A stretch of 64,000 bases of DNA from Actinomycetales bacterium (GTDB lineage: Bacteria; Actinomycetota; Actinomycetes; Actinomycetales; Cellulomonadaceae). Where the stretch lies: the NCBI GenBank assembly GCA_020444245.1, contig JAHLLI010000006.1:1-64000 (forward strand). The letters run 5' to 3'. A program made the translations under genes and the position numbers. Shown piece by piece: positions 15,005-20,517 of this stretch. The notes under the pieces are model-generated. The model worked only from the letters and a program-made list of their open reading frames with translations, was not told where the DNA came from and searched no databases. Numbering within the stretch: the stretch's first letter is position 1; each line of letters opens with the position of its first letter.

Positions 15005-16537
15005 GTGGGCCACGACCTCAGGCTCGTGCCCGCGGCCTGCGCCGCCTGGTTGGCCGCCGCGCTCGGGGTGCGGGGGAGCGCCGGGTGGGCGGTCGTCGGG
15101 CTCGGCGCGGCGCTGGGCCTGGCGGTGGCGCTGGGCGGGCTGGTGCTCCCGGGCCGCGGGCGTCGCCGCGGGGCGCCGTCCACCGCCGCGACCGCACTCG
15201 GCACGCTGGCCGTGGCGCTCGCGGCGGCCGCGGCCGTGCTCGGTTCGTGCGCGGTGCAGCTGGCCGCCCGGGACCGGGGACCGGTGGCGGCGGCAGCGGC
15301 GCAGGGCGCGGTCGTGGTGGTCACCGGGGTGGTCGCCGAGCCCATGGCGGCGGACCACGTCCCGTGGCGCGCTGACCCGGTCGGGGTGCGAGGCGCGGTG
15401 CGGGTGACCGCGCTCACCGTTCGTGGCACCACTCTGAGCACCCGTGCCGAGGTGCTCGCGCGGGGCTCGGCCGACCAGCTGGACCACCCGCCCGGCACGC
15501 GGGTGCGCCTGACCGGTCGTCTCAGGCCCCAGGACGGCCGGGTGCCCGCTGCGCTCGCGGTGACCGGTGCCACCGTGCTGGCGGGGCCGGGTCCGGTGGA
15601 CGCGGCGGTGGCCCGGTTGCGTGCCGGGCTGCTGACCGCCACCGCGGAGCTGCCCACCGATGCGCGCGGGCTGGTGCCCGGCGCGGCGGTGGGGGACACC
15701 TCACGGCTGGACCCCGGGCTCGCCGACGCCATGCGCGCCGCCGGGCTGTCGCACCTCGTAGCCGTGTCGGGCCAGCACGTCGCCGTGGTCGTGCTCGCCG
15801 CGTTCGGCCTGGCCGGGCTGGTCCGCGCGCCGCGCTGGCTGCGCGCGGTGCTCGCGGCGACGTGTGCGGTGGCGTTCTCGGTGCTGGTGGGCGGCGGCCC
15901 GGCGGTGCTGCGCGCGGTCGCGACGGGTGTGGTCGGGGCGGTCTCGGTGGGTCTGGGGCGGCGGGCCAGGCCCGTGCCGGTGCTCGCGGCAGCGGTGGTC
16001 GGGCTGTGCCTGGCGGATCCCTGGGCCACCGGTTCGCTGGGCTTCCAGCTCTCCGTGGTCGCGACCGCTGCGATCGTGCTCCTCGCGCGGCCGGCGGCGG
16101 TCGCGCTCGGCGGCCGCAGCGAGCGGGCCTGGCGCCTGCTCCCGGTGGCGACCGTGCCCCTGGCGGCGCAGAGCGCCGTCGGCCCGGTCCTGGTGCTGGT
16201 CGACCCGGTCGTGACGCCGTGGGCGGTGCTCGCCAACGTGCTCGCGGCGCCGGCGGTGGTCCCGGCCACGCTGCTCGGCCTCGGCGCCACGCTGCTCGGT
16301 CCCGCGGCGCCGGGCGCGGCGAGCGCGCTGGCCCGGGTCGCAGCGCTGCCGGCGGGCTGGATCGCGACGGTCGCCCGCGCGACGGCCGGGTTGCCGGGGG
16401 CGCAGACGGGTTGGGCGCCGGGCCCCGCGGGCGCGATCGCCCTGGCCGCGCTGACGGGCGCCGGGTGGTTCACCGCCCGGGCGCTGCTCGCCGGACCGCC
16501 CGATGACCGGGGCCGTCACCGGGACGTGGCAGGCTGA
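15005..16537 (+). CDS. comEC: ComEC/Rec2-type DNA-uptake channel, without metallo-beta-lactamase domain
   Basis: 510 residues, largely hydrophobic with roughly ten membrane segments. A DUF4131-like N-terminal domain is followed by the Competence domain, whose signature GLSHLVAVSGQHVAVVVLA is clear near residue 245. The protein stops after the last helix (WFTARALLAGPP), whereas the longer family members continue with a lactamase_B domain. The ORF is uninterrupted, so this is a natural short form rather than a frameshift. It starts at GTG 15005, 3 bp after comEA. Confidence 0.9.
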   Translation: MGHDLRLVPAACAAWLAAALGVRGSAGWAVVGLGAALGLAVALGGLVLPGRGRRRGAPSTAATALGTLAVALAAAAAVLGSCAVQLAARDRGPVAAAAAQGAVVVVTGVVAEPMAADHVPWRADPVGVRGAVRVTALTVRGTTLSTRAEVLARGSADQLDHPPGTRVRLTGRLRPQDGRVPAALAVTGATVLAGPGPVDAAVARLRAGLLTATAELPTDARGLVPGAAVGDTSRLDPGLADAMRAAGLSHLVAVSGQHVAVVVLAAFGLAGLVRAPRWLRAVLAATCAVAFSVLVGGGPAVLRAVATGVVGAVSVGLGRRARPVPVLAAAVVGLCLADPWATGSLGFQLSVVATAAIVLLARPAAVALGGRSERAWRLLPVATVPLAAQSAVGPVLVLVDPVVTPWAVLANVLAAPAVVPATLLGLGATLLGPAAPGAASALARVAALPAGWIATVARATAGLPGAQTGWAPGPAGAIALAALTGAGWFTARALLAGPPDDRGRHRDVAG

Positions 16538-16541
16538 TCCC

Positions 16542-17522
16542 GTGCCTCGCGCTGCCTCGATCACCTGGGACCAGGTGGTTCCCGCCCCGCTCGTGCTGGT
16601 CACCGGACCGGAGGGCCTGCTCGCCGAGCGCGCCGTGGACCGGGTGGTCGAGCTGTCGCGGTCCACCGATCCCGAGGTGGAGGTCACGCATCTCGACGCC
16701 GCCGGGTATGAGCCCGGTCGCCTCGGTGTGGCCACGAGCCCGTCGCTGTTCGGCGAGTCGCGCGTGGTGGTGCTCGAGGGGTTGGAGGCCGGGACCGACG
16801 CGGCGTTCGACGACCTGCGGTCCTACGTCGCCTCTCCGGAGCCGGACGTCGTCCTGGTGGCCGTGCACGGCGGTGGCAACCGCGGCCGTCCCGCGCTGGA
16901 CGCGGTCCGGGCCGCGGGCGCCACGCAGGTGGTGTGCGAGGCGATCAAGCGCGAGGGCGACAAGGCCGACTTCGTCGGTCAGGAGCTGCGGCGCGCGGGG
17001 CGTCGCGCGGACTCCGGCGCGGTCCGGGCGCTGGTCGAGGCCTGCGGCGCCGACCTGCGAGAGCTCGCCTCCGCCTGCCAGCAGCTCGTGTCCGACACGT
17101 CGGGGTTGATCTCGTCCGACGTGGTCGCCCGCTACTACGGCGGGCGGGTCGAGGCCACGGGCTTCCGGGTCGCCGACGCCGCGGTGGCGGGCCGCGCTGG
17201 TGAGGCGGTGGCGCTGCTGCGGCACGCGCTGGCGACCGGGACGGACCCGGTCCCGCTGGTCGCCGCACTGGCGGCGCGGTTGCGGGTGCTGGCGAAGGTG
17301 GCGGCGGCGCGAGGCCGCGGCCTGACCGCGGCCGACCTCGGCCTCGCACCCTGGCAGCTCGACCGTGCGAAGCGCGACCTGGTGGGCTGGCGCCCGGAGA
17401 CGCTCGCCGAGGCGATCGGCGCCGTCGCGCAGGCGGATGCCGAGGTCAAGGGCGCCGGGCGCGACCCGGTGTTCGCGGTCGAGCGCGCGGTGCTGCGCGT
17501 GTCTGACGCTGCCGCACGCTGA
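16542..17522 (+). CDS. holA: DNA polymerase III subunit delta
   Basis: 326 residues from GTG 16542, 4 bp behind comEC. An upstream ATG at 16503 would overlap comEC and add a non-conserved segment. Three-domain clamp-loader fold: an N-terminal AAA-like domain (LVLVTGPEGLLAERAVDRVV), a middle region with FVGQELRRAGRRADSGAVRALVEACG, and a helical collar domain ending AVERAVLRVSDAAAR. It opens the beta clamp as part of the clamp-loader complex. The comEA-comEC-holA-rpsT order is widely conserved. Confidence 0.93.
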   Translation: MPRAASITWDQVVPAPLVLVTGPEGLLAERAVDRVVELSRSTDPEVEVTHLDAAGYEPGRLGVATSPSLFGESRVVVLEGLEAGTDAAFDDLRSYVASPEPDVVLVAVHGGGNRGRPALDAVRAAGATQVVCEAIKREGDKADFVGQELRRAGRRADSGAVRALVEACGADLRELASACQQLVSDTSGLISSDVVARYYGGRVEATGFRVADAAVAGRAGEAVALLRHALATGTDPVPLVAALAARLRVLAKVAAARGRGLTAADLGLAPWQLDRAKRDLVGWRPETLAEAIGAVAQADAEVKGAGRDPVFAVERAVLRVSDAAAR

Positions 17523-17584
17523 CCCGACCGCCCCCGAAACAAAGCGCTGACGTGTGCTCTTGCCGTGAGCGACGTTGGTCTCAC

Positions 17585-17605
17585 GAGTCATAGGTGCTAT
17601 GACTC
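17585..17605. promoter_or_regulatory. inverted repeat 1 upstream of the peptide gene
   Basis: GAGTCATAG, GTG, CTATGACTC: perfect 9-bp arms with a 3-bp spacer. It lies about 125 bp upstream of the predicted peptide promoter in an unusually AT-rich stretch for this genome. Confidence 0.7.
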
Positions 17606-17641
17606 ACTCCGAACCATGCGCCCCACACGAAGTCAATGTGA

Positions 17642-17654
17642 CGTATGTCATACG
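17642..17654. promoter_or_regulatory. inverted repeat 2 upstream of the peptide gene
   Basis: CGTATG-T-CATACG: perfect 6-bp arms around one base. It shares the GTCAT/ATGAC core with the flanking repeats and lies about 55 bp upstream of the predicted -35 box. Confidence 0.55.
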
Positions 17655-17708
17655 CACCTCTGTCCCGGTTTGTGCAGGTAAATGCCGAAATCTAGACCCC
17701 GAAACCCC

Positions 17709-17736
17709 TGGACAGAGGTGCGAAGTCTGTCATAGT
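17709..17736 (+). promoter_or_regulatory. promoter of the secreted-peptide gene
   Basis: TGGACA (17709-17714), 16-bp spacer, CATAGT (17731-17736). The start of transcription would fall near 17743, giving a short leader with GAGGAG at about 17757. The -10 region is inside inverted repeat 3. Confidence 0.5.
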
Positions 17737-17749
17737 AGTCATGACAGAC
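17725..17749. promoter_or_regulatory. inverted repeat 3 over the peptide promoter
   Basis: GTCTGTCAT, 7-bp spacer, ATGACAGAC: perfect 9-bp arms covering the predicted -10 box and start site. A regulator bound here would block or reposition RNA polymerase. Confidence 0.7.
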
Positions 17750-17767
17750 CCCACCCGAGGAGTAACC

Positions 17768-17890
17768 ATGAGCCGCATCGTCAAGGCTTCCGTCACCGCC
17801 ATCCTCACCGCCTCCCTCGCTGTCATCGGCCTCCCGCTCGGAGGCGGCGCCGCCACCGCGAGCATCGGCACCGGCTGCTGCACGTTCTGA
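17768..17890 (+). CDS. small secreted peptide precursor (candidate pheromone)
   Basis: 40 residues from ATG 17768 with CGAGGAGTAACC as ribosome binding site. Basic n-region MSRIVK, hydrophobic core through AVIGLPLGGG, and an ATA cleavage site followed by SIGTGCCTF, so the mature product would be about nine residues with a vicinal Cys-Cys. It is bracketed by three inverted repeats and a promoter upstream and a hairpin 17 bp downstream, so it is a self-contained transcript. The next gene on the same strand is an XRE/TPR regulator, the receptor type that binds short exported peptides in RRNPP systems. Alternatives: a bacteriocin-like or metal-binding peptide, or a modified peptide precursor. Family unknown. 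Confidence 0.7.
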   Translation: MSRIVKASVTAILTASLAVIGLPLGGGAATASIGTGCCTF

Positions 17891-17906
17891 TCCCAGCTCT
17901 ACCGCG

Positions 17907-17930
17907 GGCCGTCGGCGTGCGCCGGCGGCC
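17907..17930 (+). terminator. terminator behind the peptide gene
   Basis: GGCCGTCGGCG, TG, CGCCGGCGGCC: an 11-bp stem with one mismatch, starting 17 bp after the peptide stop. Confidence 0.6.
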
Positions 17931-18029
17931 GTCGTGGTGCCAGGGCCCCGGGGGCGAGCCGGAGGCGGCTGAGCCGTTCGGGTGAGCAACGGGCCGCATG
18001 GGTGGACAGGCCCCTCGAAGGTGTCGATG

Positions 18030-18064
18030 CATGGCTGTCAATGCCATGAAGTCACGGGTATGGT
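18030..18064 (+). promoter_or_regulatory. leaderless regulator promoter with overlapping palindrome
   Basis: Palindrome CATGGC-TGTCAAT-GCCATG (18030-18048) covers a -35 box CTGTCA (18035-18040). An 18-bp spacer leads to -10 TATGGT (18059-18064), only 8 bp before the GTG start at 18073, so the message is probably leaderless. No Shine-Dalgarno sequence is present. Confidence 0.55.
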
Positions 18065-18072
18065 GATGAGTT

Positions 18073-19419
18073 GTGACTGGACTTCCCGAACGTGTGCGGG
18101 CCGAGCGGGTCCGTGCTGGCCTGTCTCAGACGGCGCTCGCCGGCAACGAGTTCTCGCCGTCCTACATCTCGCTCATCGAGGCGGGACGGCGTACTCCGAC
18201 CGACCGCGCCCTTGCCGTGCTCGCCGAGCGCCTCGGTACCACGGCCGACTTCCTGCGCTTCGGTGACAAGGCACCGAGCGAGGAACGCGCGCGACTGGAG
18301 CTCGGCTACGCCCGCATCGCACTGGCGAACGGTGAGGCGACCGACGCGCGGGACCGGCTGCTCGCCCTCGACCTCGGGGCCATCGCGCCTCGACACCGGA
18401 CGGAGGCGCTGGTCGCCCTCGCCCAGGCGCACGAGGCGCTCGGCGACCTCGACAGCGCGGTGGCCGTGCTCGAGCCCCTGCTCGCCGAGGCACGCGCCAA
18501 CCAGCGCTGGCTCCAGGCCGCCGCGCAGGCGGCCTACCTCGTCGCGATCTACGTCCAGGCCGGCGACCTGAGCCACAGCATCGAGCTCGGCGAGGAGGTG
18601 CTCGCCGAGCTGGAGGAGGCCGGCCTCGCCGCGACCGACGAGCACCTGCGCCTCGCGTCGTCGATCCTGTGGTCGTACTACCAGCGTGGTGACCTGCTGT
18701 TCGCGGCTCACCGGGCCTCGGGCCTGATCGAGATGGCCGAGGAGCACGGCACGCGGCGCGGGCGCGGCAGCGTCTACTGGAACGCGTCGCTCGTCGCCGA
18801 GGGGCGTGGCGAGTACGCCGAGGCCCGCCGGCTCACCGAGCGTGCGATCGCCTACCTGAGCGAGAGCGAGCCCACCCGCGACGTCCCGCGCCTGCGGCTG
18901 CACTACGGGTGGCTGCTCCTGCGCGCCAACCCTCCGGAGCCGGTCGCCGCCCTCGAGCAGTTCGCCGCCGCGATGGAGGGGCTGGTCAACGTCGGCACCG
19001 AGCTCGAGATCGGGCGCTGCGAGTACGAGACGGGCCGCGCCCACCTGCTCCTCGGCGAGCCGGAGCGGGCCGAGCGCCTGGTCCGGGGCGCCCTGGAGCG
19101 GATCGGCGACTCGGGCGACTTCGACGCCTGCGACGCGCACATCGTGCTCGGTGACGCGCTCGCAGCCACCGGACGGCTCGACGAGGCTCTTGACGAGTAC
19201 CGCTGGGCCGCTGACCGGCTCGCGATGCTGTCGGCGGGGCGTCAGTCGGCCTCGGTCTGGCGCTCGCTCGGAGACCGCCTCGTCTCCCTCGGCGATCACG
19301 CGGCTGCGGCGCGCGCCTACGCCACAGCGCTCGAGGAAGCCGGTATCCGCCCGACGACCTTCTCGATGACCACCCGCCACCCTCTGGCTGTCGGGTTCAG
19401 CGAGCCCACAGAGAACTGA
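18073..19419 (+). CDS. XRE-family HTH regulator with TPR sensor domain (RRNPP-like)
   Basis: 448 residues from GTG 18073. Residues about 5-62 form an HTH_3/XRE domain (VRAGLSQTALAGNEFSPSYI, SLIEAGRRTPTDRALAVLAE). The rest is a long array of paired helices with TPR spacing, for example ALVALAQAHEALGDLDSAVA, AAYLVAIYVQAGDLSHSIEL and ALAATGRLDEALDEYRWAAD, with about ten repeats. No membrane segment. This domain order is that of Rgg, PlcR, PrgX and ComR-type regulators, which bind an imported peptide in the TPR groove. The adjacent secreted peptide (17768) is the obvious candidate ligand, and the four palindromes are candidate operators. Direct evidence for peptide binding is absent. A terminator follows. 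Confidence 0.85.
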   Translation: MTGLPERVRAERVRAGLSQTALAGNEFSPSYISLIEAGRRTPTDRALAVLAERLGTTADFLRFGDKAPSEERARLELGYARIALANGEATDARDRLLALDLGAIAPRHRTEALVALAQAHEALGDLDSAVAVLEPLLAEARANQRWLQAAAQAAYLVAIYVQAGDLSHSIELGEEVLAELEEAGLAATDEHLRLASSILWSYYQRGDLLFAAHRASGLIEMAEEHGTRRGRGSVYWNASLVAEGRGEYAEARRLTERAIAYLSESEPTRDVPRLRLHYGWLLLRANPPEPVAALEQFAAAMEGLVNVGTELEIGRCEYETGRAHLLLGEPERAERLVRGALERIGDSGDFDACDAHIVLGDALAATGRLDEALDEYRWAADRLAMLSAGRQSASVWRSLGDRLVSLGDHAAAARAYATALEEAGIRPTTFSMTTRHPLAVGFSEPTEN

Positions 19420-19484
19420 GCTCGCCCACGGGCGTCTCGCCGGCTGGCAGGGGGAGTCGGGGCGACAGGCCTGGCGGATGACGG

Positions 19485-19518
19485 ACGAGGGCGCCTCCCC
19501 ATGGGGAGACGCCCTCGT
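19485..19518. terminator. bidirectional terminator between regulator and rpsT
   Basis: ACGAGGGCGCCTCCCC facing GGGGAGACGCCCTCGT around AT: a near-perfect stem of about 16 bp with one mismatch, placed between two converging genes. Confidence 0.85.
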
Positions 19519-19559
19519 TCTGGCTCGTCAGGCCCGCGGAGCGGGCCGGGCCGCGGCGC

Positions 19560-19820
19560 TCAGAGCGCGGCGACCTGCTTGGCCAGCGCGGACTTGCGGT
19601 TGGCCGCCTGGTTCGCGTGGATCACGCCCTTGCTGACGGCCTTGTCGAGCTTGGTGCTCGCGGTGCGCAGGGCCGTGGTCGCGGCCTCCTTGTCGCCGGT
19701 CGCGACAGCCTCGTGCACGCGGCGAACGAGCGTCTTGAGCTCGGACTTCACCGCCTTGTTGCGAAGACGCGCGGCCTCGTTGGTACGGATCCGCTTGATC
19801 TGGGACTTGATGTTGGCCAC
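19560..19820 (-). CDS. rpsT: 30S ribosomal protein S20
   Basis: 86 residues from GTG 19820 (the first residues, [20 protein letters not shown], match S20). Basic and helical; it binds the 5' domain of 16S rRNA. Ends [14 protein letters not shown] as usual. It lies opposite to holA, as is common in actinobacteria; here the peptide/regulator unit sits between them. Confidence 0.97.
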
Positions 19821-19965
19821 AGTTGACTCTCTTGTGCGTTCGCCGAAGCGATCTGACAGGTCGTAGAGGGCGCGTCCGGAGCCGGGACTGGGGCGTGGGG
19901 ACACCCTCGGAGAGGATCCGGACCAGTGCCCGCCGACCTGGGCGGACACGCGGCCTGTGATGCTA

Positions 19966-20517
19966 TCAGCCGCGGCGCGCCCTGAGCGAACCGACCACGG
20001 CGTCGAAGCGGGCACGGTCGAGGACGGCACCCTCCCGCCGCACGGCCCGCGGGTCGACGCGGATCACCCGGTCCAACCGCACCTCGCTGGGGCGGCGTCG
20101 GGAGTCCCAGGCGCCGGTCCCCAGATCCAGCCAGCGCTCGTCGGGTGGACCCGGCCGGACGTCGTGGTCGCGGCTGGAGAGCATCAGGCCCAGCAGCCAC
20201 GGACCGTCGTGACCGACCAGCAGGACCGGGCGGTCCTTGCCGCGCCCGTGGTCCTCCTCGAACGGCACCCAGGTCCACACGACCTCTCCGGGGTCCGGCT
20301 CGCCATCCAGGTCCGGCGCGTACGCGGGGGTGAGTGGCCCGTCGAAGTCGCCCGGGTAGCCACCGGTGCGGGCGGCGCGGGCCGTGCCCGCTCTGGCCCG
20401 GACCCGGGTGGCGCCGGCGGCGGCCCCGCGCACGCCGGCCTTGGCGCCCCGCACCGCCGCGGAGGCGACCAGCCGCACCGCGCGGCCGAGGGCGCCACCC
20501 GCCGATGATCTCGCCAT
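19966..20517 (-). CDS. PemK/MazF-like protein with basic N-terminal extension
   Basis: 183 residues from ATG 20517. Residues about 1-60 are rich in Ala, Arg and Gly and contain no clear domain. The rest resembles the PemK/MazF beta barrel: [38 protein letters not shown], and [19 protein letters not shown]. MazF toxins cleave mRNA, but the actinobacterial long form usually lacks a neighbouring antitoxin, as here: no small ORF precedes or follows it on the same strand. It may have been recruited to a non-toxin role. An upstream ATG would add about 20 more residues. Confidence 0.75.

Follow-up and report, generated by a model that had tools for sequence, protein, structure and literature searches.

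Peptide pheromones read by HTH-TPR proteins have been described so far as a trait of Firmicutes. In the available parts of three surveys, RRNPP(A) is treated as a Firmicutes/Bacillota family (PMC9765709, PMC10075063, PMC12700828), and the part of one of them that deals with Actinomycetota presents the signals of that phylum as typically small molecules (PMC10075063). In the window, the 64,000-nt stretch of an Actinomycetales genome that was analysed here, a gene for a small peptide with a signal-peptide-like N-terminus precedes an XRE-TPR regulator gene. Does this locus encode a similar plan in Actinomycetota? The earlier note on this DNA knew of no characterised actinobacterial counterpart with a CCTF-type signal, and no such pair in the phylum was found in our literature search, which had preprints and most subscription papers outside its scope. 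If present in several actinobacterial orders, such a pair would add a communication system to a major antibiotic-producing phylum, and the proposed circuit comes with defined candidates for the signal and the operators and with an output through EAL-domain proteins.

A conserved Gly-Cys-Cys peptide gene

The peptide gene (17768–17890, plus strand) encodes 40 aa, MSRIVKASVTAILTASLAVIGLPLGGGAATASIGTGCCTF, with a signal-peptide-like N-terminus and the C-terminal residues ASIGTGCCTF. A Shine-Dalgarno-like GAGGAG is located upstream on the same strand (17757–17762). The search for XRE-TPR genes with a short upstream ORF, as suggested in the earlier note, was run, and all 39 orthologues of the regulator in the family had a Gly-Cys-Cys peptide: a same-strand, signal-peptide-like ORF of 39–47 aa was located upstream of each, and at all 39 loci the tail consisted of Gly-Cys-Cys followed by two to six residues. 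In the alignment of 38 peptides (that of L039 was omitted, being identical to that of L038, and also contains Gly-Cys-Cys), residues 36–38, encoded at 17873–17881 on the plus strand, were invariant (38/38). Lys or Arg directly followed this motif in 37 of the 39 peptides, the exceptions being the window (Thr) and G071 (Leu). The CC-x-F ending that the earlier note proposed as a search pattern was confined to the window's genome. A-x-A-like motifs preceded the tail in many members of the peptide family, yet not uniformly; for the window's peptide, cleavage at an ATA site and a mature form of nine residues are a guess from its sequence.

The reading frame was kept in 39 of 39 relatives, and the pooled pN/pS was 0.53 over 16 chosen pairs (range 0.10–0.83), with third-position changes accounting for 211 of 443. 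The short ORF therefore looks like a coding sequence under purifying selection; the alternative that it is non-coding or non-conserved fails on these two results, and the claim of a coding ORF conserved beside the regulator stands. Minus-strand ORFs opposite the peptide gene (L001–L003, L011 and L017) were rejected as candidates, since the ORF in L001 runs antisense to holA and those at the other loci resemble it.

A peptide-profile search with E up to 0.1 gave matches in 281 of the 396 genomes of the order. Full-length matches, of at least 39 bits, occurred in 12 genomes, the same 12 that carried a regulator orthologue. The next-best match reached 32.4 bits and was limited to profile positions 1–28, and among the matches listed, those below 33 bits mostly aligned to the leader part.

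The XRE-TPR regulator

The regulator gene (18073–19419, plus strand) starts 182 nt 3' of the peptide ORF and encodes 448 aa, probably translated from a leaderless GTG. HTH_31/HTH_3 matches fell within residues 7–61 and TPR models extended up to residue 421; none of the Pfam matches was to a model generally taken as RRNPP-specific. An AlphaFold2 model (mean pLDDT 87.9) consisted entirely of helices and showed TPR-like hairpins, and many of the structural matches of its TPR part were peptide-binding proteins. The PlcR-PapR7-DNA complex of Bacillus (3u3w) shared the HTH-TPR fold (Foldseek E 9e-6, TM 0.39/0.57), but at 18% identity and at rank 40, behind 39 other TPR-protein entries. The HTH domain matched ComR structures with E 6e-4 (profile) and 0.016 (single sequence), and a phage immunity repressor fitted the profile better (4e-5). 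The NsdA family of TPR regulators, known from Streptomyces, gave a weak match to residues 316–411 only (NCBIfam NF053720, E 1.1e-4); the score of 21.9 bits fell short of the family cut-off (75 bits), and membership was rejected. Orthologues of the regulator were found in 39 of 150 genomes and 4 of 25 genera of the family (E up to 1e-20). The two named relatives found were both Actinotalea, with regulators 86–87% identical to that of the window.

Genomic setting

The peptide and regulator genes lie between holA (16503–17522) and rpsT (minus strand, 19560–19835), with comEA- and comEC-type genes upstream. The distance from holA to rpsT was 1.8–4.4 kb at the 25 of 39 regulator-positive loci that had both genes in reach, whereas among 24 regulator-negative genomes of the family, 12 of which had both genes in reach, the 3' ends were 106–301 nt apart in 11 and 1017 nt apart in one. 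Only genomes that carry the unit show the wide separation, in agreement with the earlier proposal of an insertion between two normally adjacent genes.

Promoters and candidate operators

A sigma-70-like promoter for the peptide gene, TGGACA-16 nt-CATAGT (17709–17736, plus strand), was predicted by consensus match only, and it was the sole such match in a scan of 16500–20000 (mean 0.1 in shuffled sequence). A consensus scan of the same interval found no intrinsic terminator; of the promoter and terminator previously assigned to the peptide gene, only the former was retained.

In the 300 nt preceding the peptide start, the exact palindrome GTCAY-N7-RTGAC was present at 37 of 39 loci (56 sites). 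The same search in shuffled sequence gave 0.16 loci (maximum 2), and with the spacer set to any other length between 2 and 13 nt, a palindrome occurred at no locus or at one. In the window, the predicted distal operator is a perfect palindrome, GAGTCATAG-GTG-CTATGACTC (17585–17605), with the core GTCAT-N7-ATGAC at 17587–17603, and was similarly placed in most relatives. The predicted proximal operator, GTCATAGTAGTCATGAC (17729–17745), overlaps the -10 hexamer of the peptide promoter. An inverted repeat (17653–17722) with 16-nt arms of 94% identity (17653–17668 and 17707–17722) was observed between these two operators. A third predicted operator, GTCAC-GGGTATG-GTGAT (18051–18067), has one mismatch and overlaps a -10-like TATGGT of the regulator gene (18059–18064); such a site was located 19–22 nt before the regulator start in exact form at 24 of 39 loci and with one mismatch at 13. 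The N7 spacer of the third operator carried the first T of TAnnnT at 36 of 37 sites and the A at all 37, and that of the proximal operator carried the last T of a CATAGT-like -10 at 34 of 34 sites, the other -10 bases falling in the half-sites by which the operator sites were chosen. Together, the sites point to a conserved operator at the predicted peptide and regulator promoters, and their association with the regulator gene suggests that the regulator binds there.

The flanked form TGTCAY-N7-RTGACA occurred once in the window's genome, at the proximal operator. Across 16 of the 17 regulator-positive genomes of the genus it was found at 18 places, 14 of them at the peptide promoter, with none in two genomes. 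Beside homologues in another family, the same operator was located 38–54 nt (L066) and 36–52 nt (L067) before the start of a divergent peptide gene; L064 had a strong site that did not adjoin the peptide gene, and no strong site was found at homologues L059–L063 or at most paralogues. The exact core occurred at 33 places in the window's genome, two of them at the locus. The remaining 31 sites scored 10.7–20.1, most of them below 15, where only the weakest operators score, and 12 were inside a long ORF by our own rule; the best two were at upp (L088) and pilM (L098).

Divergent EAL genes

A divergent gene started within the distal operator at 21 of 39 loci, the RTGAC half-site providing its ATG or GTG. 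All 21 divergent genes matched Pfam EAL, and 20 of them belong to the other three genera, which have 22 loci in all. The DDF motif, part of the EAL catalytic site, was kept in L005, L019 and L027. Many of the divergent EAL proteins may bind rather than cleave c-di-GMP, since the motif was absent from the other 18. In L004 and L017, a gene that was EAL-like by motif was located downstream of the regulator and had no strong operator site, and L036, L037 and L040 contained a tandem pair of ORFs, EAL-like by motif, pointing away from the peptide gene. The window's locus has no divergent EAL gene; its distal operator is kept, with holA directly beyond it. Of the 17 loci in the window's genus, 14 had no divergent EAL gene in the fetched stretch, and in this genus the circuit proposed below looks nearly self-contained.

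CC peptides beside distant homologues

Both strands around more distant homologues were scanned for ORFs of 30–75 codons with a ribosome site, a hydrophobic core and CC within the last eight residues. In other families of the order, a CC peptide was found at 11 of the 13 examined loci (L059–L064 and L066–L070), 10 of the 11 being divergent from the regulator; two further homologue matches in G223 lie outside this count. The scan found no strict CC-ended ORF at L065 or L075, and L065 contained a longer divergent ORF with PCCRGFQ internally. Among the paralogues within the family, five of six (L042–L046) had one or four SPCCK peptides downstream, and no CC peptide of its own was found for the sixth (the first copy in L041). 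At L045 and L046 (L073 and L074), four similar SPCCK propeptides were arrayed downstream of the paralogous XRE-TPR gene. As controls, 592,232 bp of other fetched DNA from the family gave one match (three without the ribosome-site rule), and two 49-kb stretches from Streptomyces and Nonomuraea (98 kb) gave none.

The scan found no CC peptide at the four distant homologues from elsewhere in the phylum (L077–L080). Sixteen plasmid-collection records with homologues were grouped by us into seven lineages of Streptomyces, Nonomuraea and Streptosporangium, and one or two records were fetched per lineage. CC-ended ORFs were found in three: an ORF ending in IPLCC in the S. goshikiensis type, annotated as hypothetical and passing only without the ribosome-site rule; one ending in LPLCC in Streptomyces NBC_01707, approximately 1.9 kb downstream and past another gene; and a divergent one ending in AGCC in Nonomuraea. 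None was found in the fetched records of NBC_01176, NBC_01387, NBC_00334 and Streptosporangium. One phage scaffold without annotation, obtained from human faeces (L304, MT836207.1:1-3569), encoded an XRE-TPR homologue of 35% identity close to its end; a CC ORF was found neither in this locus nor in that of one short viral-contig match.

In a FastTree phylogeny of the regulators, the SPCCK, PLCC and GP[VAM]CC tails fell in clades of their own, and GCC[KR] filled nearly all of the orthologue group. Tail types were mixed in the f15 group, and xGCC recurred in L062, L064 and L303; the agreement between receptor and tail was judged by eye on the tree. Pairs of this kind are not confined to the locus type described in the earlier note: CC peptides also occur beside distant homologues.

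Proposed circuit and alternative explanations

We propose, with a probability of roughly 65%, that the locus encodes an actinobacterial peptide-signalling circuit that is of the RRNPP kind and regulates itself. As a dimer, the XRE domain would bind the GTCAY-N7-RTGAC operators, and the bound regulator would repress the promoters, because the operators cover -10-like elements; the direction of control was read from operator position alone. The peptide leader would be removed on export, and the C-terminal CC peptide would be re-imported, bind the TPR groove and lift the repression, which would amount to positive feedback. At loci with the divergent EAL gene, the likely output would be a protein of the c-di-GMP type. 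A regulator that represses until its peptide releases it is known from Rgg3/SHP and PrgX/cCF10.

The RRNPP-like plan of the earlier note is supported by a peptide fixed at all 39 orthologues, its invariant CC core and a common operator at both promoters, and we use the likeness as a working analogy. Against it weigh the 39 TPR-protein entries ranked above PlcR, the better HTH match to a phage immunity repressor, the absence of an RRNPP-specific Pfam match, the homologues at which the scans found no CC peptide or no strong operator, and the xGCC tails that recur across receptor clades. Two features of RRNPP systems are present: an N-terminal XRE HTH and a C-terminal TPR superhelix in one protein, and an adjacent small propeptide gene with a predicted export-type leader (39/39; 11/13 in other families). 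The two-gene plan of a secreted propeptide, for which export is predicted here, and an intracellular TPR receptor is that of RRNPP(A). Rgg-SHP and ComR-ComS (XIP) of streptococci likewise place a regulator with an XRE-type HTH and TPRs next to a short propeptide that is conserved at its C-terminal end. In contrast to these systems, the present one belongs to another phylum, has a longer TPR part and a vicinal Cys-Cys tail, and combines operators overlying -10-like elements with an apparently leaderless regulator. The tails of streptococcal pheromones are hydrophobic or carry WW, and PapR has no CC tail.

Alternatively, the peptide could be the product of the system, a secreted metal-binding, redox-active or antimicrobial CC peptide, with the XRE-TPR protein sensing another ligand. 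The chemistry of vicinal cysteines would suit a metal or redox role, the four-peptide arrays at two paralogue loci suit high output, and 14 of the 18 flanked operators in the window's genus are at the peptide promoter itself. We nevertheless regard this explanation as unlikely: the peptide is conserved at its C-terminus, like PapR, SHP and ComS, tails are similar on close receptors and mostly different on distant ones, and the structural matches of the TPR model include many peptide-binding proteins. It is improbable, too, that the peptide stays in the membrane as an anchored or unreleased regulator or sensor, tied to the XRE-TPR protein only through shared expression. The hydrophobic leader could serve as an anchor and the A-x-A-like motifs are not uniform, but their occurrence before the tail in many members, and a very short tail rich in Gly and small residues, argue against it. 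Scarcely credible is a role of the short ORF as leader or attenuator of the regulator gene, its Cys codons sensing cysteine supply. In the orthologue group the ORF is indeed upstream and on the same strand, with Cys codons near its end; the regulator gene, however, carries a separate operator and -10-like element by its start, the peptide leader is conserved in kind, and divergent peptides or downstream arrays beside other homologues contradict this role.

A ComRS-like competence switch came into consideration because the locus follows comEA-comEC and an operator-like site precedes pilM. In the window's genome, the pilM site (L098:1745-1761, G000:C15:159244-159260) scored 19.0, and pilM was present in 37 of 39 regulator-positive against 29 of 111 regulator-negative genomes, a co-occurrence that is confounded by phylogeny. 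The best score within 400 nt of pilM was 8.8 or less at the other 36 regulator-positive loci and 5.4 or less before pilM at 31 regulator-negative loci. Among the genomes examined, the site is therefore confined to the window's own, and direct pil control was rejected; before comEA in the window, no operator site scored above 8. We consider the switch at least as improbable as the membrane anchor.

For the self-regulating circuit, a wider version has in our estimate an even chance of being correct. It holds that intracellular-receptor quorum sensing by vicinal dicysteine peptides is widespread in Actinomycetota, with the residues around CC as the address, EAL proteins as a direct output in part of the family, and a CC that may be sensitive to redox state or metals.

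Operator-like sites downstream of upp

In the window's genome, a pair of operator-like sites (L088:1501-1517 and 1679-1695) was observed downstream of upp, in conserved DNA with no clear gene; this region gave no Rfam match up to E 1. The best score in the upp region was 15.1 (G143) in 28 other regulator-positive genomes and 20.8 (G017) among 13 regulator-negative genomes. Site pairs 178–180 nt apart were present in the window's genome and its two closest relatives, with scores of 20.1/16.5, 22.2/13.8 and 19.9/16.1.
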